In this document: in pieces, positions 480-9,371 of the stretch | Position numbering within the stretch: the first letter of the stretch is position 1 | Layout of the letters: the number at the start of each line of letters is the position of its first letter | NCBI RefSeq assembly: GCF_004146235.1 | Contig: NZ_SELO01000017.1 | Coordinates: 1 to 64,000 of the forward strand | Reading direction: 5' to 3' | Origin: Tropicimonas sp. IMCC6043 | GTDB lineage: Bacteria > Pseudomonadota > Alphaproteobacteria > Rhodobacterales > Rhodobacteraceae | DNA length: 64,000 bases | Notes under the pieces: model-generated | What the model was told of the DNA's origin: nothing | What the model saw: the letters and a program-made list of their open reading frames with translations, nothing else | Database searches by the model: none | Position numbers and translations under genes: made by a program

Positions 480-495
480 TTTCATTCGAAAGAAA
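480..495. promoter_or_regulatory. putative DeoR-type operator
   Basis: TTTCATTCGAAAGAAA is an interrupted palindrome with TTTC/GAAA ends and a TTCGAA centre. It lies 21 bp before the chosen start of the DeoR-family gene, a position suited to autorepression. The octamer TTCGAAAG within it recurs at 1329 and 1354 in front of the kinase gene. Confidence 0.5.
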
Positions 496-516: not shown

Positions 517-1290
517 ATGAAGACCGGACGAAACACCAGGACGCGTCAGCAGGCCATCCTGCGCCACTTGCACCAGAACGGCCGGGCGACGGTGGAGGAA
601 CTGGCCGGGCGTTTCGAGACCACGCCGCAGACCATCCGCAAGGATCTCAACATCCTCGCCGGAGCCGGGCGGGTGATGCGGTTCCATGGCGGTGCCTCGC
701 TGCTCGCGGGGAGCGAATATACCGGCTACGAGGTGCGCAAGCAGATCGCCCGCGAGCAGAAGGAGCGCATTGGCCGGGCGGCCGCGGCGCTGGTGCCGAA
801 CAACACCGCCGTGATCCTCAACGCGGGCACCACCACCGCCGAGGTCGCGCGCCGCCTCGAGAACCATTCCGGCCTCAAGCTGGTCACCGACAACCTCGAG
901 ATCGCCAATGAACTCAGGCATATGGCGGGGATCGAGGTGATGGTCCCGGGCGGCGTGATCCGCGCCTCCGATGGCGCGATCCTCGGCGAGACGGCGGTCG
1001 AGTTCATCCGTCAGTTCCGCGCCGACATCGCCATCGTCGGCTGCGCCGCGATCGCGTCCGACGGCGCGCTGCTGGATTTCGACCTGCGCGAAGCGGTGGT
1101 GGCGCGCGCCATCCTCGCGGTGTCGCGAAATGTCATTCTCGCCGTCGACTCGTCGAAATTCGAACGCATGGCGCCCGTCTGCATCGGCCATCTGAACCAG
1201 CTCCGCAGCCTCGTTACCGACCGGGGCTGCCCGGCAGAACTGCGCGATCTCTGCCGGGCCGAGGGCGTGGACCTCGTGATCGCGGACTAG
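517..1290 (+). CDS. DeoR/GlpR-family transcriptional regulator of the sulfosugar cluster
   Basis: This 257-residue protein has the usual length and layout of the DeoR family. An N-terminal winged helix-turn-helix covers about residues 10-60 and includes the stretch TTPQTIRKDLN. The DeoRC sugar-phosphate sensor domain follows, with the NAGTTT and D-rich ILAVD motifs. I chose the ATG at 517; a TTG at 508 is in frame, but the ATG gives a standard N-terminus. It heads a plus-strand cluster of sugar catabolic genes, so a local repressor released by a sugar phosphate is likely. The known regulator of the E. coli sulfoquinovose genes, CsqR/YihW, is also a DeoR-family protein, which fits the proposed role. 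The ligand is not shown by the sequence. Confidence 0.9.
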   Translation: MKTGRNTRTRQQAILRHLHQNGRATVEELAGRFETTPQTIRKDLNILAGAGRVMRFHGGASLLAGSEYTGYEVRKQIAREQKERIGRAAAALVPNNTAVILNAGTTTAEVARRLENHSGLKLVTDNLEIANELRHMAGIEVMVPGGVIRASDGAILGETAVEFIRQFRADIAIVGCAAIASDGALLDFDLREAVVARAILAVSRNVILAVDSSKFERMAPVCIGHLNQLRSLVTDRGCPAELRDLCRAEGVDLVIAD

Positions 1291-1328
1291 ATCGCCGACG
1301 CGACGACGTCCGCCGGTTGACAGGATGG

Positions 1329-1377
1329 TTCGAAAGGAACAGCATCCGCGCAATTCGAAAGCTGAAACGAACGTTTC
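1329..1377. promoter_or_regulatory. operator region before the kinase gene
   Basis: The gap between the regulator and the kinase holds two copies of TTCGAAAG, at 1329-1336 and 1354-1361, 25 bp apart. Next to them is the inverted repeat GAAACG-AA-CGTTTC at 1364-1377. The same octamer lies in the palindrome before the regulator gene. The likely reading is that the DeoR protein controls the catabolic genes from a second promoter here. Confidence 0.5.
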
Positions 1378-1476
1378 CGATTCGCGCACGCATCGGACCG
1401 CTCGGGAGGACCCACATTTGCCCGCATCGCAGCTGCCGAAGCGTCAGCAAGTCTCGCCTGCGCTGGAGTCGCAGCG

Positions 1477-2361
1477 ATGAGCGACGTCCTCGTGCTTGGA
1501 ATGGCAGCAGTCGATTTCGTTCTAGGTATCGACGAGTTCCCGTCCGAACCCACCAAATATCGCGCCCGTTCGGCCGACATCGTCGGCGGCGGACCGGCCG
1601 CCAATGCCGCTGTCGCCATCGCCCGGCTCGGTGGGCATCCGAGCTTTGTCGGCCGGCTCGGCGACGACCCGCTGGCGGACATCGTGCTTGCAGACCTTGA
1701 AGCGGCCGGCGTTTCGACCGATCACGTCCATCGCACGCCCGGCGGCCGTTCCGCCTTTTCCTCGGTCCTCGTCGACACAAATGGCGAGCGGCAGGTCGTC
1801 AATTTCCGCGGCGAGGGGCTGACGGAGGATGCCGATTGGATCGCCGCCCTGCCCCGCGCCGATGCCGTGCTCGTCGACACCCGCTGGCCCGACGGCGCTG
1901 CTGCTGCGCTCGCCCGAGCCCGCGCGTGGGACGTGCCCGGGATCGTCGACGGCGAGGCGCCGATCGACCCGCGCCTCGTCGCCGAGGCCAGCCACCTCGC
2001 CCTCTCGCGACAGGGGTTGGCCTCGCTGGTGCCGGGCGAGGACCTTGCCGATGCGCTCGCGACCCTTGCCGCGCGGCGTCCCGGCTGGAGCTGCGTGACG
2101 GACGGCGCGAATGGCATCTGGTTCACCGACGGAGGCGGCATCGCCCACCTCCCGGCCTTCCGTGTCGACACCGTGGACACGCTCGCCGCTGGCGATGTCT
2201 GGCACGGGGCCTTCGCGCTGGCGCTCGCCGAAGCACGGCCGGAACGCGAGGCGATCCGCTTTGCCAATGCCACCGCGGCGCTCAAATGCATGCGTTTCGG
2301 CGGCCGGTCCGGGACTCCCGACCGCGCTACCGTCGAGACCTTTCTCGAGGAGACGGAATGA
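1477..2361 (+). CDS. PfkB-family sugar kinase, proposed sulfofructose kinase
   Basis: This 294-residue protein is a ribokinase/PfkB kinase. It carries the N-terminal sugar-binding motif GGGPAANAAVAIARLGG near residues 36-50. The C-terminal signature DTLAAGDVWHGAF includes the catalytic Asp and the anion hole. Phosphorylation of a keto-sugar at C1 is the usual chemistry before a class I LacD-type aldolase, and that aldolase is the next gene, overlapping by 4 bases (ATGA). In E. coli the sulfofructose kinase YihV belongs to this same superfamily. The substrate assignment rests on the neighbours (isomerase, aldolase, sulfopyruvate decarboxylase). A kinase for an ordinary ketohexose cannot be excluded from sequence alone. 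Confidence 0.85.
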   Translation: MSDVLVLGMAAVDFVLGIDEFPSEPTKYRARSADIVGGGPAANAAVAIARLGGHPSFVGRLGDDPLADIVLADLEAAGVSTDHVHRTPGGRSAFSSVLVDTNGERQVVNFRGEGLTEDADWIAALPRADAVLVDTRWPDGAAAALARARAWDVPGIVDGEAPIDPRLVAEASHLALSRQGLASLVPGEDLADALATLAARRPGWSCVTDGANGIWFTDGGGIAHLPAFRVDTVDTLAAGDVWHGAFALALAEARPEREAIRFANATAALKCMRFGGRSGTPDRATVETFLEETE

Positions 2362-3386
2362 TGAACCTCACTCTCGGAAAGCTCTGGGGGCTGCGTCGCA
2401 TGGCCGATGCGAACGGCATCTTCAAGATGACCGCGACCGATCAGCGCCCGCCGATCAAGAATCCTATCGCCAAACGGCTCGGTCTCGCACAGGCCCCCTG
2501 GCAGGAAGTCGCCCGCTTCAAGGCGATGCTGATCGAGATCCTGCAATCGCACTCGACCGCGCTCCTCTTGGACCCGCATTTCGCCATCCCCGCGGGGATC
2601 GACCTGCTGTCCCCGACCCGCGGACTGATCGTCACGCTGGAGGATTCGGTCTTCACCGAGACGCCGGGCGGGCGGCTGTCCTCCGATATCGACGACTGGT
2701 CGGTGGCGAAGATCAAGCGGATGGGCGGCGATGCGGTCAAGGTGCTGGCCTGGTACCGGCCCGATGCGGACCCGCAGGTTGTGCAGGCACAGCGCGACTA
2801 CGTGAAACGGATCGGCGACGCATGCGCACGCTACGACATCCCTTTCCTGCTGGAGCTTCTGGTCTATCCGCTGGCCGCTGACGCCCACCAGACCGGCGAC
2901 TATGTCGAACTCAGGGGAAAGAAATCGGACGACGTGCTGGCCAGCGTCGCGGAGTTCGCAAAGCCCGACTATGGCGTCGACGTCTTCAAGCTGGAGAGCC
3001 CGGTCAACGCAGAGGATGCCGACGGCTCGGCCATGGTGCAGGCGATCTTCGACGAGATGGGCCGGCTGGCGGGCCGTCCCTGGGTAATGCTCTCGGCCGG
3101 TGCCGGCAAGGCCGCATTCCGGAACGTTCTGGAGCACGCCTTTGCCGCCGGCGCCAGCGGGTTCCTCGCCGGCCGCGCGATCTGGCTCGACGCGTTTGAC
3201 GCCTATCCCGACTGGGCGTCGATCGAGAAGGACCTGCGCGGCGGCGCGCTCGACTATCTCGCCGAGATCGGAGCGCTCGCCGACGCCAGGGCCGCCGACT
3301 GGTCCGCGCATCCCTGCTATGGCGAGGGTGGGGCGCGGTTCCGGCCGGCCGATGCCGGCTTCCGGCACGGCTACGACGCATTTTGA
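2358..3386 (+). CDS. LacD-like class I aldolase, proposed sulfofructose-1-phosphate aldolase
   Basis: This 342-residue protein resembles tagatose-1,6-bisphosphate aldolase (LacD), a Schiff-base aldolase of the TIM-barrel type. Landmarks are LLDPHF near residue 71, TLEDS near 93, VKVLAWYRP near 127 and FKLESPV near 210, where Lys211 is the likely Schiff-base lysine. LSAGAGK follows, where the phosphate probably binds. Two adjacent ATG codons (2358 and 2361) are possible starts; I used the first, which overlaps the kinase stop. The sulfosugar aldolases of the sulfo-EMP routes belong to this general fold, and cleavage to DHAP and 3-sulfolactaldehyde is proposed from context. Tagatose-bisphosphate cleavage is the alternative, but there is no galactitol or lactose gene nearby. 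Confidence 0.8.
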   Translation: MMNLTLGKLWGLRRMADANGIFKMTATDQRPPIKNPIAKRLGLAQAPWQEVARFKAMLIEILQSHSTALLLDPHFAIPAGIDLLSPTRGLIVTLEDSVFTETPGGRLSSDIDDWSVAKIKRMGGDAVKVLAWYRPDADPQVVQAQRDYVKRIGDACARYDIPFLLELLVYPLAADAHQTGDYVELRGKKSDDVLASVAEFAKPDYGVDVFKLESPVNAEDADGSAMVQAIFDEMGRLAGRPWVMLSAGAGKAAFRNVLEHAFAAGASGFLAGRAIWLDAFDAYPDWASIEKDLRGGALDYLAEIGALADARAADWSAHPCYGEGGARFRPADAGFRHGYDAF

Positions 3387-3396
3387 GGCAAGGCGC

Positions 3397-4779
3397 ATGA
3401 GACTTGGGATCCTCACCCTCGGTCGACCGACATTCGACGTGGCCTTCGCCGAGGAAAAACTGGCGGCGATGCTGGCCGCGCTCGACGCGACCGGACACGA
3501 TCTCGTCGGCCCGCGCGGCCTGCTCTTCGACGAGACAGCGACGCGCGCCGCCATGGACGAGATCGCCGCTTCCGGGATCGATCGGCTGCTGATCCTTCAG
3601 GTCACCTTCACCGACGCGTCGATGACCGTTGCCGCGGCGGACGCTTTCGACATGCCGCTGGCGATCTGGTCGATACCTGAGCCGCGACTGGGCGGCCGGC
3701 TCCGGCTCAACGCCTTCTGCGGGCTCAACCTCGCTTCCCACGCGCTCGGGCTGCGCAAGCGCGATTTCGGCTGGCTCCACGCCGACCCGGCGGGCGATAT
3801 CGCCAGCGATCTCGCCGATCTCCTCGCCGGACGGCGCATGGCCGGACGCCTCGACTCCGTGCCACCTCCCGAGCGCAGCCCCGAGGGCGCCCGCGTCGCA
3901 ATGGCGATCCGCGGCCGCAGGATCGGCCGGATCGGAGAAGCGCCGGCCGGCTTTGACACCTGCGCCTATTCCGCCGAGGCGATCGAGGCCCTGGCCGGCG
4001 TCACGGTCGAGGCGCTCCCGCTCGACGATCTCTTCGAGGCCGCGGCGGACGCATCACCGACAGCACTCGCCGAGACCCGCGCTCTCGCGGAGGCCGATGT
4101 GACCGGGCTCAGGGACGTCGATCAGGCCGAACTTGACCGCTCGCTCCGGCTCAAGTCCGGGATCGAGGCGCTTCGCTCATCCGGCGGGTACAGCGCCTTC
4201 GCGATCCGCTGCTGGCCGGAAACCTTCACGCAATATGGCGGTGCGGTCTGCGGCCCGGCGGCGATGCTGGGCGAGACGGGCCTGCCCTGCGCCTGCGAGG
4301 CCGATGTCATGGGCGCGCTGACCCAGCTGATCCTCATGGAAGCGGCGCAGGCACCGGTCTTTCTTACCGACCTCGTCGATATGGACCCCAAGGACGATAC
4401 CGGCGTCGTCTGGCATTGCGGCCAGGCACCGATTTCGATGCGCGACCCCGACGCGCCGGCCACCGCGACGGTACACAGCAACCGCAAGCAGCCGCTGCTT
4501 TACCAATTCCCGCTGAAACCCGGTCCGGTGACTTTCCTGCGGATCAGCCAGGCCTTCGGCCGGACGAAAATGGTCCTTGGCGCAGGCGAGATGCTGCGAC
4601 GGCCTATGGCCTTCACCGGCACCTCGGGCGTGGTCCGCTTCACCCGACCGGTCGGCGAGGTGCTGGCAGACATCATCGCCAGCGGACTCGAACATCACAT
4701 GGCGCTTGCCTATGGCGACCACCGCGCGACATTGCGCGCCACGGCCGCCGAACTCGGCCTGCCCCTTCTGGAGATCTGA
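3397..4779 (+). CDS. L-fucose/L-arabinose isomerase-family protein, proposed sulfoquinovose isomerase
   Basis: The 460-residue product has the general architecture of the metal-dependent L-fucose/L-arabinose isomerase family. The C-terminal half carries CACEADVMGAL around Glu301 and the segment WHCGQAP around His340, positions that normally hold metal ligands. It starts at the ATG at 3397, 10 bases after the aldolase stop, with a short purine-rich sequence in front. Isomerases of this family act as the sulfoquinovose-to-sulfofructose isomerase in the sulfo-EMP2 and transketolase-type sulfoquinovose pathways, unlike the YihS type of E. coli. Here it would supply the ketose to the kinase. Specificity for a sulfonated sugar is inferred from its neighbours. 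Confidence 0.75.
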   Translation: MRLGILTLGRPTFDVAFAEEKLAAMLAALDATGHDLVGPRGLLFDETATRAAMDEIAASGIDRLLILQVTFTDASMTVAAADAFDMPLAIWSIPEPRLGGRLRLNAFCGLNLASHALGLRKRDFGWLHADPAGDIASDLADLLAGRRMAGRLDSVPPPERSPEGARVAMAIRGRRIGRIGEAPAGFDTCAYSAEAIEALAGVTVEALPLDDLFEAAADASPTALAETRALAEADVTGLRDVDQAELDRSLRLKSGIEALRSSGGYSAFAIRCWPETFTQYGGAVCGPAAMLGETGLPCACEADVMGALTQLILMEAAQAPVFLTDLVDMDPKDDTGVVWHCGQAPISMRDPDAPATATVHSNRKQPLLYQFPLKPGPVTFLRISQAFGRTKMVLGAGEMLRRPMAFTGTSGVVRFTRPVGEVLADIIASGLEHHMALAYGDHRATLRATAAELGLPLLEI

Positions 4780-4780
4780 A

Positions 4781-5872
4781 ATGGTGCTGAGATACGGGCT
4801 CGTCGGCTCCGGCATGATGGGCCAGGAACACATCCGGAACCTGACCCTTCTCGGCGGTTGCGAGGTCACCGCCATCGCCGACCCCGACGAGGGCATGCGG
4901 CGGCTCTCTGTCGAGACAGCGGGAGGCGCGGCGCGGGCCTTTTCCGACTATCGGGAAATGTTGTCGGCCGACCTCTGCGACGTGCTGATGGTGATCTCGC
5001 CCAACGACACGCACTACCCGATCATGCTGGACCTGTTGGAGACCGGCAAACCGATCCTTTGCGAGAAACCGCTCTGCACCACCTCCGAGCATTGCCGCGA
5101 CCTCGTCCGCCGCGCCGAGGGCCGCGCGGCGCCGGTCTGGGTGGCGATGGAATACCGCTACATGCCGCCGATGCAACGGCTGGTCCAGGAGATGGCGGAG
5201 GGACGGATCGGCCGGCCCTGGATGATGTCGATCCGCGAGCACCGCTTCCCCTTCCTTCCCAAGGTCGGCGACTGGAACCGCTTCAACGAGCGCACCGGCG
5301 GCACGCTCACCGAGAAATGCTGCCATTTCTGGGACCTGATGCGCTACACGCTCCAGAGCGACCCCGTGCGCGTCTATGCCTCCGGCGCGATGGACGTGAA
5401 CCATGTCGACGAGCTCTATGGCGGCCGCAAGCCGGACATCATCGACAACGCCTTCGTCACGGTGGATTTCGCAAACGGAACAAGGGGCATGCTGGATCTC
5501 TGCATGTTCTCCGAAGGTGCCTACTGGCAGGAGAAGATCTGCGTCACGGGGGATCACGCGCGGATCGAGGCGAAGGTTCCCGGCCCCTCGCGCTTCTCTC
5601 CCGACGGACAGGAGCGCGACGCGGAAGTGGTCATCTCCGAACGCGCAACCAAGCGGGTGACCAAGGAGGTGATCCACGTACCGAACGAGGTGCTTCAGGC
5701 CGGCGACCACCACGGCTCGACCTACTTCCAGCATCAGCGCTTCCGCGATCTGGTACTGGCTGGTCATGGAACCCCAGAGGTGACATTGACGGACGGGCTC
5801 TGGTCCGTGATCGTCGGCGAGGCCGCCGAGCGCTCGGCACGGACGGGCGAGGCGATCGCGGTGGCGCTGTGA
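4781..5872 (+). CDS. Gfo/Idh/MocA oxidoreductase, candidate NAD-dependent sulfoquinovosidase
   Basis: This 363-residue protein has an N-terminal Rossmann fold with GLVGSGMMG at residues 6-14 and the diagnostic EKP motif at residues 95-97, as in the Gfo/Idh/MocA family. It starts one base after the isomerase stop. Members of this structural family can act as NAD-requiring glycoside hydrolases. One such group (SqgA, family GH188) opens sulfoquinovose glycosides in gene clusters with a sulfo-EMP2 pathway. No GH31-type sulfoquinovosidase is visible in the window, so this gene could fill that role. A simple sugar dehydrogenase is the alternative. The residues that bind the sulfonate cannot be assigned without alignment. 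Confidence 0.65.
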   Translation: MVLRYGLVGSGMMGQEHIRNLTLLGGCEVTAIADPDEGMRRLSVETAGGAARAFSDYREMLSADLCDVLMVISPNDTHYPIMLDLLETGKPILCEKPLCTTSEHCRDLVRRAEGRAAPVWVAMEYRYMPPMQRLVQEMAEGRIGRPWMMSIREHRFPFLPKVGDWNRFNERTGGTLTEKCCHFWDLMRYTLQSDPVRVYASGAMDVNHVDELYGGRKPDIIDNAFVTVDFANGTRGMLDLCMFSEGAYWQEKICVTGDHARIEAKVPGPSRFSPDGQERDAEVVISERATKRVTKEVIHVPNEVLQAGDHHGSTYFQHQRFRDLVLAGHGTPEVTLTDGLWSVIVGEAAERSARTGEAIAVAL

Positions 5873-5924
5873 TGCGCGCACCGGGCGCCGGGGCAAGGCA
5901 AGAGAGATTCGCAGAGGACACTTC

Positions 5925-7373
5925 ATGACCGACTACACGACCTACATGCAGCAGTCGAACCTGATCGGCGGGGACTGGACAGGCGCCGACAGCGGCAAGA
6001 TGATCGAGGTAACCAACCCTGCCACCGGCGCGGTGATCGGCACCGTTCCGAACTGCGGCGCCGACGAGACACATCGCGCAATCGCAGCAGCCGCCGAGGC
6101 TTTCCGGGACTGGTCGATATCCGACCTGGGGTTCCGCGTGCAGCTCCTGCAGGATCTGCATGATGCGCTGCTCGACAACCAGGAGAGCCTCGCTCTGCTT
6201 CTCACCACCGAACAGGGAAAGCCGCTCTTCGAAGCGAAGGGCGAGATCGCCATTTCGGCCGGCTACATCCGCTGGTTCGCCGAGGAGATCCGGCGCGCCA
6301 AGGGCGAGATCGTGCCAGCCCCGCAAGCCGGTCGCCGGCTGATGGTCACTCGCCACCCGGTGGGCGTCGTCGGCGCGATCACGCCGTGGAACTTCCCCTC
6401 CTCGATGCTCGCCCGCAAGCTCGGACCGGCGCTCGCCGCCGGCTGCACAGTGGTCGCCAAGCCGGCGACCGCGACACCCTATTCCGGCCTCGCCTGGGGC
6501 AAGCTCTGCGAGGAGGTCGGTTTCCCGGCAGGCGTGGTGAATATCGTCACGGGTTCCGCCCGCGCCATCGGCGGAGCGATCATGGAAAGCCCGACGGTCC
6601 GGAAGGTCACCTTCACCGGCTCGACCAAGATCGGAAAGCAACTCATCCGCCAGTCCGCGGACACCGTCAAAAAGGTCTCGATGGAGCTCGGTGGAAATGC
6701 GCCCTTCATCGTCTTCGACGACGCCGATCTCGACGCCGCGGTTGAGGGCGCGATGGTCGCCAAGTTCCGCAACATGGGTCAGACCTGTGTCTGCACAAAC
6801 CGTTTCTACGTACAGTCCGGCATCCACGACGCTTTCGTCGCACGGCTCCGGGAAGCCACGGCCGCGCTGGTGGTCGGCAACGGCGCCGAAGAAGGTGTGC
6901 AGCAGGGGCCGATGATCGACATGGATGCGGTCGAGAAGGTCGAGGAATTCATCGCTGACGCGACCAGCAAGGGCGCAAAGATCGTCGAGGGCGGCAAGCG
7001 CCACGGCAATGGCGGCACCTATTTCGAACCGACGGTGGTCACCGGCGCAACGAGCGAGATGCAGTTTGCCACCGAGGAAATCTTCGGTCCGCTGGCCGCC
7101 GTGTTCCGTTTCGAGAGCGAAGAGGAAGCGATCGAGGCGGCCAATGCCACCGAATTCGGCCTCGCGGCCTATGCCTATACGCGCGACGTGGGCCGGGTCT
7201 TCCGGCTCGACCAGGGGCTCGATTACGGCCTGATCGGCATCAATGCCGGGCTCATCACCACGGTCGAAGCGCCATTCGGAGGGCTGAAGCAATCCGGCAT
7301 GGGCAAGGAGGGCGGAAGCCAGGGCCTCGACGACTATCTCGAGACGAAATATCTTTGCGTCGCAGGCCTTTAG
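5925..7373 (+). CDS. GabD-like NAD(P)-dependent aldehyde dehydrogenase, proposed 3-sulfolactaldehyde dehydrogenase
   Basis: The protein has 482 residues, standard for the succinate-semialdehyde dehydrogenase branch of the aldehyde dehydrogenase superfamily. Visible catalytic elements are TPWNF (Asn156), MELGGNAP (Glu254) and MGQTCVC (Cys288). The start at 5925 is preceded by an AGAGGA ribosome binding site. In Pseudomonas putida SQ1 a GabD-like enzyme oxidises sulfolactaldehyde to sulfolactate, so this is the natural candidate for the step after the aldolase. Two bases separate it from the next gene, whose product would oxidise sulfolactate. Other semialdehydes remain possible substrates. Confidence 0.85.
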   Translation: MTDYTTYMQQSNLIGGDWTGADSGKMIEVTNPATGAVIGTVPNCGADETHRAIAAAAEAFRDWSISDLGFRVQLLQDLHDALLDNQESLALLLTTEQGKPLFEAKGEIAISAGYIRWFAEEIRRAKGEIVPAPQAGRRLMVTRHPVGVVGAITPWNFPSSMLARKLGPALAAGCTVVAKPATATPYSGLAWGKLCEEVGFPAGVVNIVTGSARAIGGAIMESPTVRKVTFTGSTKIGKQLIRQSADTVKKVSMELGGNAPFIVFDDADLDAAVEGAMVAKFRNMGQTCVCTNRFYVQSGIHDAFVARLREATAALVVGNGAEEGVQQGPMIDMDAVEKVEEFIADATSKGAKIVEGGKRHGNGGTYFEPTVVTGATSEMQFATEEIFGPLAAVFRFESEEEAIEAANATEFGLAAYAYTRDVGRVFRLDQGLDYGLIGINAGLITTVEAPFGGLKQSGMGKEGGSQGLDDYLETKYLCVAGL

Positions 7374-7375
7374 TG

Positions 7376-8302
7376 ATGTCGGTTCTGATCACCGAGTTCA
7401 TGGACAAAGCCGCGGTTGCCACGCTGCAATCGAAGGTCGAGACGCGCTACCTGCCGGACCTCGCTGACCGGCAGGAGGAGATTCCGGCCATGATCTCGGA
7501 GGTCGAGGCGCTCATCGTGCGCAACCGCACCCAAGTCACGGCGGCGCTGCTTGACGCGGCGCCGCGGCTTACAACCATCGGCCGGCTCGGCGTCGGGCTC
7601 GACAATATCGACCTCGACGCCTGCCGGGCGCGCGGCGTGAAGGTGATCCCGGCGACGGGAGCAAACAACCGGTCGGTGGCCGAATATGTCATCACCAGTG
7701 CCCTGGTCCTGCTGCGCGGCGCGTATCATTCGAAGCACGCAATGTTGGCGGGCAAGTGGCCGCGCGGGGACTGCGCCGGGCACGAGATCCAAGGCACGTC
7801 GCTCGGTCTCGTCGGCTTCGGCGGCATCGCGCGGGAGACCGCGCGGCTGGCGCGCGGCCTCGGGATGACCGTCCTTGCCGCCGACCCGTTCGTTTCGCCG
7901 CAGGACCCGGCCTGGGAAGCCGCCGAACAGGTCGATCTTCCGGACCTCCTGGCACGATCCGACGTCGTCAGCCTTCATGTTCCGCTAAGCGATGCGACCC
8001 GGCACATGATCGACGCCGCCGCGCTCGAACGGATGAAACCCGGCGCCATCCTGATCAACGCCGCCCGCGGCGGCGTCGTGGACGAAGCGGCGCTGGCGGC
8101 GGCCCTGAAGGCGGGCAGGATCGGCGGGGCGGCGCTCGACGTGTTCGAGACCGAGCCGCTGACCGCGGCAGCGGCCGAACCGTTCCGCGGATGCCCGAAC
8201 CTCATTCTGACGCCACACATCGCAGGCGTTACCGGGGAATCGAATGCGCGCGTCAGCTCGATGATCGCGGAATGCGTGCTGGAGCGGCTGAATCTGGTCT
8301 GA
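7376..8302 (+). CDS. SerA-like D-isomer-specific 2-hydroxyacid dehydrogenase, proposed (S)-sulfolactate dehydrogenase
   Basis: This 309-residue NAD-dependent dehydrogenase has the nucleotide-binding motif GLVGFGG near residues 144-150. The full catalytic set is Arg231 (NAARGG), Glu260 (FETEP) and His281 (TPHIAG). I chose the ATG at 7376, two bases after the preceding stop. The (S)-sulfolactate dehydrogenase SlcC of sulfolactate-degrading bacteria is a SerA-like protein of this family, and sulfolactate derived from sulfoquinovose has the S configuration. The next two genes encode sulfopyruvate decarboxylase, so sulfolactate to sulfopyruvate is the expected reaction. Phosphoglycerate or another hydroxyacid is a possible alternative. 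Confidence 0.85.
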   Translation: MSVLITEFMDKAAVATLQSKVETRYLPDLADRQEEIPAMISEVEALIVRNRTQVTAALLDAAPRLTTIGRLGVGLDNIDLDACRARGVKVIPATGANNRSVAEYVITSALVLLRGAYHSKHAMLAGKWPRGDCAGHEIQGTSLGLVGFGGIARETARLARGLGMTVLAADPFVSPQDPAWEAAEQVDLPDLLARSDVVSLHVPLSDATRHMIDAAALERMKPGAILINAARGGVVDEAALAAALKAGRIGGAALDVFETEPLTAAAAEPFRGCPNLILTPHIAGVTGESNARVSSMIAECVLERLNLV

Positions 8303-8313
8303 GGAGGAACCGA

Positions 8314-8820
8314 ATGGCAAGGGAGATCGACCGGCAGATCATCCGCGATCTGCGTGAGAACGGGGTAAATTTCGTCACCACCGTGCCCTGCAAGCAACTG
8401 GCCGGCCTGATCGAGGTGCTGGGGGACACAGACACGATCCGGCATGTGCCCTGTACGCGTGAGGACGAGGGCATGGGGCTCTGCGCCGGAGCTTACATGG
8501 GTGGGATGCGCCCGCTCATCATGATGCAGAACACCGCGCTCGGCGTGACCCTCAACGCGCTGGCGACGTTGATCCAGTATTACCAGATCCCGCTGCCGAT
8601 GCTGATCTCCTATCGCGGCGAGGTCGGCGAGCCGGTGGCCTGCCAGGTCGAAATGGCGCTGCACACCAAGGCGCTGCTGGCGCAACTGCACATCCCGACC
8701 TACCACTTCCACAACGTGGCGCAGGCCGACGAGCTTCCCGGCATCCTCGATCATTGCCAGATGTGTCGCAAGCCGGTCGCGGTGCTGACTGACGCCAGTT
8801 TCTGGGGGAGCGCAACATGA
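8314..8820 (+). CDS. comD: sulfopyruvate decarboxylase, alpha subunit
   Basis: This 168-residue protein is the pyrimidine-binding half of a split thiamine-diphosphate decarboxylase. The motif TREDEGMGLCAGAYMGG at residues 48-64 supplies the glutamate that activates the cofactor. QNTALG and PLPMLISYRGE follow as in ComD. A GAGGAGG ribosome binding site precedes the ATG at 8314. Its 4-base overlap with the next gene shows translational coupling of the two subunits. ComDE decarboxylates 3-sulfopyruvate to sulfoacetaldehyde. Phosphonopyruvate decarboxylase is related but usually one chain of about 380 residues, and no PEP mutase gene is nearby. Confidence 0.87.
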   Translation: MAREIDRQIIRDLRENGVNFVTTVPCKQLAGLIEVLGDTDTIRHVPCTREDEGMGLCAGAYMGGMRPLIMMQNTALGVTLNALATLIQYYQIPLPMLISYRGEVGEPVACQVEMALHTKALLAQLHIPTYHFHNVAQADELPGILDHCQMCRKPVAVLTDASFWGSAT

Positions 8821-9371
8821 TCCGCTACGACCTTCTGAAAGAGCTGAAACCGATCCTTTCGGATCACCTCGTGGTCTGCAATATCGGCGCGCCGAGCCAG
8901 GAACTGCACGAGATCGACGACCAGCCTTCGAATTTCTACATGCTCGGCACGATGGGGCTGGCATCCTCGATCGGCCTCGGACTGTCGATTGCGACGGAGA
9001 AGAAAGTCGTCGTGATCGACGGCGACGGCTCGGTCCTGACCAATATGGGGAGCCTGGCTACCATCGGGAACAATCCGCAGCCGAATCTCGTTGTCTTGAT
9101 CGTCGACAATGGCAGCTACGGCTCGACCGGCGACCAGCCGACCTATACCGGCGGGCGCACCTCGCTTGCCGGCGTGGCGGAAGCCTGCGGTTGTGACACC
9201 GTCATCGAGTGTCCGGCGGACCAGACTCCCGACATCCTGCGGAACGCGCTCGCAGCCGACCGGATGACAGTCATCATCTCGAGATGCGACAGCGGAAACC
9301 GGAAATGTCCGGTCATTTCCATGAATCCAATCTCAATTCGCGAGCGGTTCATGGCGGAAGTCGCCAGGTAA
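8817..9371 (+). CDS. comE: sulfopyruvate decarboxylase, beta subunit
   Basis: This 184-residue protein is the diphosphate-binding half of the enzyme. The thiamine-diphosphate and Mg motif begins at GDGS (residues 69-72) and closes at VDNGSYGSTGDQ (from residue 96). The segment GTMGLASSIGLGLSIA is typical of the family. It is the last gene of the plus-strand cluster; the next gene lies on the other strand after 27 bases. Sulfoacetaldehyde made here would normally be taken by Xsc to acetyl phosphate and sulfite, but xsc is not in the window. The pairing of two small subunits strongly favours sulfopyruvate over other 2-keto acids. Confidence 0.88.
   Translation: MIRYDLLKELKPILSDHLVVCNIGAPSQELHEIDDQPSNFYMLGTMGLASSIGLGLSIATEKKVVVIDGDGSVLTNMGSLATIGNNPQPNLVVLIVDNGSYGSTGDQPTYTGGRTSLAGVAEACGCDTVIECPADQTPDILRNALAADRMTVIISRCDSGNRKCPVISMNPISIRERFMAEVAR

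Follow-up and report, generated by a model that had tools for sequence, protein, structure and literature searches.

Positions 517 to 9371 of the DNA analysed here, 64,000 nucleotides of Tropicimonas sp. IMCC6043 (contig NZ_SELO01000017.1, forward strand; the window), carry nine genes which quite likely form a DeoR-regulated operon taking glycosides of sulfoquinovose (SQ), an abundant sugar of plants and algae, to sulfoacetaldehyde, with Xsc encoded elsewhere in the genome. This reading builds on the gene content, the protein families, conserved residues, an Xsc present in the genome and a linkage that recurs in relatives, for which we used 80 named loci, the best among 127 confirmed relatives, and counted genes lying up to 9 kb from that of the isomerase with at least 40% identity. 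On a broader scale, the balance tips toward a tandem sulfo-Embden-Meyerhof-Parnas (sulfo-EMP)/Xsc pathway that would be widespread in marine Rhodobacterales and Hyphomicrobiales and would combine a standard upper module (SqgA-SqvD-kinase-class I aldolase, usually with a tripartite ATP-independent periplasmic (TRAP) transporter) with exchangeable lower modules, namely SlcC-ComDE(-Xsc), SlcC with ComC-like and SuyB-like proteins, or none within the examined flank.

In the proposed route, SqgA would open an SQ glycoside such as SQ-glycerol, SqvD would convert SQ to sulfofructose, and the PfkB enzyme would phosphorylate the latter to sulfofructose-1-phosphate, which the class I aldolase would split into dihydroxyacetone phosphate and (S)-sulfolactaldehyde. 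The SlaB/GabD-like enzyme would then form (S)-sulfolactate, the SerA-like enzyme (SlcC) would oxidise this to sulfopyruvate, and ComDE would release sulfoacetaldehyde and CO2, before Xsc, encoded on another contig, would yield sulfite and acetyl phosphate. Five of the six carbons would be kept and one lost as CO2. Each reaction with its substrate, the regulation by SQ and the uptake are predictions in this scheme.

Gene layout

The contig is 101 kb long, in a genome of 5.46 Mb and 293 contigs, and the window comprises its first 64 kb, so that just 516 bases lie 5' of deoR in the assembly. The nine intact plus-strand open reading frames stand back to back with intergenic gaps of 1 to 186 bases, and the families of their products are supported by Pfam and NCBIfam profile matches:

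485 to 492, plus strand: candidate operator TTCGAAAG upstream of deoR (exact match; putative function)
517 to 1290, plus strand: DeoR-family regulator, CsqR-like (PF00455, PF08220; 35% identity to E. coli CsqR)
1329 to 1361, plus strand: two more TTCGAAAG sites in the deoR-kinase gap (exact matches)
1477 to 2361, plus strand: predicted sulfofructose kinase, YihV-like PfkB (best solved match 7AG6)
2358 to 3386, plus strand: predicted class I sulfofructose-1-phosphate aldolase, DeoC/LacD family (8TNF match; Schiff-base K211)
3397 to 4779, plus strand: SqvD-like sulfoquinovose isomerase (NF048012; arabinose/fucose isomerase family fold)
4781 to 5872, plus strand: predicted GH188 NAD+-dependent sulfoquinovosidase, SqgA-like, of the Gfo/Idh/MocA family (8QC3, 8QC2 and 8ZN9 matches)
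5925 to 7373, plus strand: predicted sulfolactaldehyde dehydrogenase, SlaB/GabD-like (SSADH family; ELGGN and GQTC motifs)
7376 to 8302, plus strand: SerA-family 2-hydroxyacid dehydrogenase, probable (S)-sulfolactate dehydrogenase SlcC (PF02826, PF00389; comD neighbour)
8314 to 8820, plus strand: ComD, predicted sulfopyruvate decarboxylase alpha subunit (TIGR03845)
8817 to 9371, plus strand: ComE, predicted sulfopyruvate decarboxylase beta subunit (TIGR03846)

The gene order is repeated in relatives, and the arrangement is therefore not due to chance. The initial annotation of this DNA had described nine adjacent plus-strand genes with several 4-base overlaps; the genes stand, and the overlaps come down to two certain ones, at 2358-2361 (PfkB/aldolase) and 8817-8820 (ComD/ComE), and a third (SerA-like/ComD) that is conditional on a ComD TTG start at 8299, which is also open. 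Its enzyme list together with the DeoR regulator accounted for eight genes, whose families agree with the profile matches, and left the ninth, the Gfo/Idh/MocA gene, uninterpreted. To call the operon "complete" went too far, since an importer, a mutarotase and xsc are not part of it.

Upper module

The Gfo/Idh/MocA protein suggests where the pathway could begin. Against the PDB it matched 8QC3 (5e-116), 8QC2 (3e-112) and 8ZN9 (3e-110), the next match following at 6e-21; 8QC2 is named as GH188 (PMC11465081), and its sister 8QC3 is presumably GH188 as well. Eight of nine ArSqgA residues examined, as taken from PMC10755693 and PMC11465081, are kept: the catalytic and SQ-contacting K107, Y136, E189, H193 and H321 correspond to window K96, Y125, E178, H182 and H310, and the sulfonate-binding R166, L170 and K172 to R155, L159 and K161, with the numbering offset fixed on K107 in the 8QC2 alignment. 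The GH188 match and these residues make SQ glycosides, opened by a GH188-type enzyme, the probable entry substrate of the operon.

Among solved structures, the kinase scored highest with the sulfofructose kinase 7AG6 (222 bits, versus 170 for a second sugar kinase and 98 for ribokinase), and K27, N109 and R138 of YihV, which we take to be its sulfonate-binding residues, are conserved in the alignment. The aldolase had been described as LacD-like with a Schiff-base lysine, and this lysine is K211, which aligns with that of YihT (29% identity in that alignment) and is invariant across 20 aligned orthologues. Its predicted fold (mean predicted local distance difference test score, pLDDT, 89) is matched best by 8TNF, a "sulfohexulose-1-phosphate aldolase" (44-46% identity, template modelling (TM) score 0.86-0.88), followed by LacD (27-29% identity) and YihT (24-25%). 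Sulfo-EMP2, to which the initial annotation had likened the upper pathway, uses the class II, metal-dependent aldolase SqiA (PMC9594981, PMC12890257), and we reject membership in it because the window aldolase is of class I with the Schiff-base K211. As judged from its sequences, the upper module is instead a hybrid sulfo-EMP, in which an SqvD-type isomerase is combined with a YihV/YihT-type kinase and aldolase.

For the isomerase, the sole NCBIfam match was the sulfoquinovose isomerase model NF048012, at 244.8 bits against a cut-off of 700. Its structure model (mean pLDDT 92) matches arabinose and fucose isomerases with E-values down to 9e-21, at TM scores of only 0.50-0.59 and a whole-chain root-mean-square deviation near 23 Å, so that the model makes the family clear, but not the domain arrangement. 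A second, distant SqvD-like isomerase (about 30%) is encoded on contig C21 of the same genome (L081:1473-3059), where it adjoins a DeoR-type gene.

Two other readings come into question for these enzymes. The same logic could serve another sulfohexose, e.g., sulfofucose (via sulfotagatose), or a mixture: 8TNF stems from Paracoccus onubensis strain Merri, which we take as the P. wurundjeri strain Merri of the sulfofucose paper, tagatose bisphosphate is a substrate of LacD-type enzymes, and the isomerase model resembles arabinose and fucose isomerases. We consider this unlikely, as a GH188-like gene is found in 67 of the 80 named loci and the window copy retains the SQ-contacting residues; furthermore, strain Merri on sulfofucose did not raise its kinase and aldolase homologues and used an Entner-Doudoroff (ED) route, and sulfofucose is called possibly rare (PMC12421959). 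That the enzymes are misread and the operon is a common one for a sugar of the tagatose or inositol type, as the best NCBIfam names of the aldolase (tagatose aldolase, above cut-off) and of the Gfo/Idh/MocA protein (inositol dehydrogenase, under cut-off) might suggest, appears highly improbable given that the PDB matches are closer to sulfosugar enzymes, that ComDE is attached and that the only NCBIfam name of the isomerase is that of an SQ isomerase.

Lower branch

The steps proposed to follow SQ cleavage are covered by four further genes. The GabD/SlaB-like dehydrogenase reached 639 bits with the SSADH family (cut-off 646) and contains the ELGGN and GQTC motifs. The SerA-like protein gave SerA-family matches only (PF02826, PF00389), with no SlcC model among them, and its gene adjoins comD in all 17 loci with comDE. 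The sulfolactate formed in sulfoglycolysis is the S enantiomer, which SlcC converts to sulfopyruvate (PMC11382572, PMC11131964), and this fits an SlcC-like enzyme upstream of ComDE; we infer that the SerA-like enzyme has this role and feeds ComDE. ComD scored 159.2 bits with TIGR03845 (cut-off 147.95) and ComE 218.4 bits with TIGR03846, just below its cut-off of 221.5. Alpha and beta are separate, adjacent subunits, and the phosphonopyruvate decarboxylase model lies far under its cut-off.

A genome search for xsc, as proposed in the initial annotation, located it on contig C65 (353214-354941; 919.9 bits, cut-off 676.4). Within the genus, a close isomerase (at least 76% identity) occurs in six of nine genomes, the window's included, and Xsc exceeded its cut-off in all six of these and in one of the three others. 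In the congener G005, comE is followed by a molybdopterin oxidoreductase, an Fe-S protein, a frame without family match and then xsc, which ends about 6.5 kb past comE and has genes for a MocR-type regulator and an aminotransferase as neighbours. The molybdoenzyme and Fe-S matches were all below cut-offs, and SoeABC is a name that we assume for such a sulfite dehydrogenase, as no model gives it; a large subunit 63% identical to this molybdoenzyme is encoded on C65 of the window genome. The succession of molybdopterin oxidoreductase, Fe-S protein and xsc after comE in a congener (L102:17018-21380 and L179:3378-9792) looks as though release and oxidation of sulfite had been coupled to the operon.

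Alternatively, the cell could excrete a C2 sulfonate, either isethionate or sulfoacetate, at the end of the lower branch without desulfonating it, as happens in the sulfo-transketolase pathway. The operon itself holds neither xsc nor pta, Pta is not found above cut-off in the genome, and the gene context of the window strain's xsc differs from that in the five congeners compared. Nevertheless, Xsc accompanies the module in every genus member that has it, xsc lies near the operon in one congener, and the window genome has the above homologue of the molybdoenzyme following that congener's comE, so that we regard C2 excretion as improbable and a route through Xsc as the better explanation.

Occurrence and gene orders in relatives

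By isomerase, the nearest named relatives among the matches listed belong to Tropicimonas and Aliiruegeria. Order-wide searches covered 390 and 380 genomes drawn evenly from the larger group, and an isomerase of at least 56% identity was present in 24 of the 390, the window's included. The genus and order searches gave 26 other neighbourhoods, with ComDE in 8, a TRAP binding protein in 24, a MauG-like protein in 22 and a mutarotase in 21. In the 80 named loci, we counted PfkB in 74, the aldolase in 72, the GH188-like protein in 67, TRAP DctP in 59, a SerA-like protein in 50, MauG in 48, mutarotase in 41, DeoR in 37, GabD in 33, ComD in 17 and ComE in 16. ComD and ComE stand together near the SqvD module in 17 of these loci, from Rhodobacterales and Hyphomicrobiales, which includes L119, whose ComE is cut by the contig end, while L138 has a partial ComD only; this number is a lower bound, since in 16 loci without comDE the sequence extends less than 5.5 kb past the isomerase gene. 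The earlier claim of a sulfosugar catabolism that leads into sulfopyruvate decarboxylase within a single operon is well supported by sequence.

Four arrangements of comDE were found: Gfo-GalM-GabD-SerA-ComDE (13 loci), Gfo-SerA-ComDE (L145), SqvD-SerA-ComDE (L148, L150) and a unit divergent from deoR (L119). Tropicimonas sediminicola DSM 29339 and Aliiruegeria lutimaris DSM 25294 have fuller clusters, in which TRAP, mutarotase and comDE are all present. L150, from a Pararhizobium metagenome-assembled genome, has just a 45% aldolase piece and no kinase was seen there; its comE is followed by an enolase-superfamily gene resembling sugar-acid dehydratases (L150:13606-14724), which might be compatible with a different sulfosugar or a branch of the ED type. 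In loci of Hoeflea and of the Nitratireductor type, SerA is flanked by a galactarate-dehydratase-family protein (this family occurs in 11 loci) and an Ldh_2 protein (9 loci), the best model of which is L-sulfolactate dehydrogenase, below its cut-off; by family membership, this set fits SuyB-SlcC-ComC. At L101, from Aliiruegeria haliotis, the upper module and TRAP are kept and no gabD, serA or comDE match occurs within 21 kb of locus; Xsc is present in genome G001, taken as the counterpart of this locus. A MauG-like di-haem protein (PF03150, about 580 amino acids), near the isomerase gene in the 48 loci counted above, is encoded between TRAP binding protein and kinase at L060:12460-14208 and many related loci, and a conserved frame of about 220 amino acids, whose tested copy had no Pfam or NCBIfam match, lies just before the isomerase gene in eight loci (L170:9337-9996 and similar).

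In a ComE tree, the window ComE groups with those of the congeners (support 100/98). SQ-associated ComE mostly stand apart from the other ComE sampled, which suggests a specialised clade. A single origin of SQ-linked ComE was rejected, as the tree needs three changes, L109 and L120 group with the ComE not linked to SQ, and 14 of its 31 internal branches are left open. As comparison sequences, the tree has 20 ComE loci that were hand-picked from top and weak rows and are not a random sample; the long-branch L207 was kept, and L205, L206, L119 and L138 were left out (ComE less than 80% covered or missing).

Points against the pathway, uptake and selection

Several observations weigh against the proposed pathway. 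For the enzymes, these are the isomerase score far under its curated cut-off with the loose fold matches, the ComE score slightly under its own, and the origin of the aldolase's nearest solved relative in a sulfofucose degrader. Moreover, strict numbering places the ninth ArSqgA residue, Glu163, at Arg152; the adjacent E153 aligns with the Glu of the solved chain, so that the numbering is probably shifted by one residue. In the lower branch, xsc is unlinked to the operon in the window strain, and the genome gave no Pta above cut-off, with two Pta-like matches that were both below. ComE exceeded its cut-off in 137 of the 380 sampled genomes of the order; it is thus common, and ComDE and Xsc may therefore serve other sulfonates too, which means that ComDE alone is no marker of SQ use. 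As for uptake, the TRAP, mutarotase and MauG proteins of the relatives gave no significant match in the window, the mutarotase having been sought in the window only, and no match of the own genome to the TRAP membrane subunits exceeded 50% identity, ABC importer families not having been searched. Finally, unique protein changes over the nine genes number 186 in the window lineage and 130 in Aliiruegeria lutimaris (about 1.4 times), as after relaxed constraint.

In most relatives, a TRAP importer and a MauG-like gene lie between deoR and the kinase gene, and a mutarotase gene between the GH188 gene and gabD; uptake there probably proceeds via this linked transporter, the frame of which is shared among congeners at 80-85% identity. 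The genome search for a sulfosugar importer that the initial annotation had called for ended with the membrane-subunit result given above, although many TRAP-like matches exist in the genome; its sole MauG match has 44% identity. The window strain may take up the substrate by another system, or the genes may have been missed by the assembly. A deletion scar inside mauG was considered and rejected, as alignment before the kinase gene gave no convincing mauG tail and only the stretch alignable to the deoR-dctQ region is kept. Loci L142, L127 and L134 have TRAP genes divergent upstream of deoR, followed by the kinase gene or a short frame, which resembles the window junction; no such divergent TRAP gene was seen in the 516 bases upstream of the window's deoR.

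Pairwise dN/dS ranged from 0.09 to 0.31 in all nine genes, with synonymous sites rather diverged (proportion of synonymous differences, pS, 0.41-0.65), and on this measure the operon is under purifying selection. The window has more unique changes than A. lutimaris in seven genes, an equal number in one and fewer in one, and constraint is perhaps relaxed. In two control genes, compared by identity alone, the excess was small for Xsc (87-90% for the window strain versus 90-94% between the other five) and negligible for a sulfate-activation protein (88-92% versus 89-95%).

These data bear on the possibility that the operon, though functional in relatives, is a decaying or repurposed remnant in the window strain, which would have lost its importer and not grow on SQ. 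The missing importer, mutarotase and MauG in the window, the lack of close TRAP or MauG matches in the genome and the larger number of unique changes in seven of the nine genes point in this direction. However, all nine frames are intact at the dN/dS values given, active-site residues and candidate operator sites are kept, and one of the many other TRAP-like systems could serve as importer. We therefore give this scenario a minor chance, albeit a larger one than the other alternatives, and favour a functional SQ operon in the window strain as well.

Regulator and candidate operator

The DeoR protein shares 35% identity with E. coli CsqR over 246 amino acids, in line with the parallel drawn earlier to the DeoR-family repressor of the E. 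coli sulfoquinovose genes. TTCGAAAG has seven exact matches in the window (1.43 expected; one of 100 shuffles reached seven), three of which flank deoR, one 5' (at 485) and two in the deoR-kinase gap (at 1329 and 1354), a gap that is alignable with the deoR-dctQ gap of relatives. The sequence is a candidate operator, and TTCGAAA occurs on either side of deoR in four of five congeners. As a family-wide operator it is unsupported beyond the genus. Among the 39 loci whose deoR is on the plus strand, 14, all five congeners included, have an exact site within 250 bases of the gene, counting both flanks, and 25 have none at this distance.

Comparison with known systems and biological meaning

Arthrobacter spp. 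share with the window a sulfo-EMP pathway with GH188 sulfoquinovosidase, sulfofructose kinase, sulfofructose-1-phosphate aldolase and oxidation of sulfolactaldehyde to sulfolactate, but isomerise SQ with a YihS-type enzyme, are proposed to import by an ABC transporter and excrete sulfolactate (PMC8873060, PMC10755693, PMC12890257), whereas the window has an SqvD-type isomerase and continues with an SlcC-like enzyme and ComDE. Sulfo-EMP2 and the sulfo-EMP/EMP2 hybrids likewise combine SqvD, kinase and aldolase, so that hybrids of the enzyme sets are known, and the aldolase of the published Vibrio hybrid is likewise not YihT; sulfo-EMP2 differs by the class II SqiA and ends in sulfolactate or 2,3-dihydroxypropane-1-sulfonate (DHPS) (PMC9594981, PMC12890257, PMC13372026). 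In the tandem sulfofucolytic-sulfolactate sulfolyase pathway of Paracoccus strain Merri, one cell splits a sulfohexose and degrades the C3 sulfonate, and the cluster holds PF00294 kinase and PF01791 aldolase genes alongside SlcC/ComC/SuyAB; unlike the window, it handles sulfofucose via an ED route, with racemisation and SuyAB in place of ComDE-Xsc (PMC12421959). GH188 Tyr-variant clusters of Actinobacteria have a similar upper module with fucose isomerase, kinase and aldolase as well as a phosphoglycerate-dehydrogenase-type gene, yet contain SuyAB for ComDE, a Tyr in the sulfonate loop (Leu in the window) and an ABC importer (PMC11465081). The HpsNOP-SlcD-ComDE-Xsc route of Alphaproteobacteria leads from sulfolactate over sulfopyruvate and sulfoacetaldehyde to sulfite and acetyl phosphate as proposed here, but receives its input from DHPS and SlcD, whereas a single operon would supply it here through sulfoglycolysis and an SlcC-like enzyme (PMC11382572).

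Open-licence full texts, among the matches listed, included no paper on an operon that links sulfoglycolysis to ComDE-Xsc; one figure legend names both enzyme sets, in that passage not joined in one operon. Each half has precedent (ComDE-Xsc on sulfolactate; sulfoglycolysis with SuyAB), and what is new is the combination of known modules. The novelty seen in the initial annotation, that the C3 sulfonate is not excreted, becomes narrower, since tandem pathways of the SuyAB type have already been proposed or found to use it within one cell (PMC9594981, PMC12421959). Both pathways in one bacterium have been called unusual in the 2025 sulfofucose paper (PMC12421959), and with a recurrent coupling operon at hand in cultured strains, the question can be put directly to the test.

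The gene orders suggest the lower module as the variable part, a variation that surveys of the upper pathway only would miss, and the scoring of genomes as SQ excretors or mineralisers would shift. If the proposed pathway is true, single marine cells could mineralise the sulfur of SQ via sulfoglycolysis without cross-feeding.

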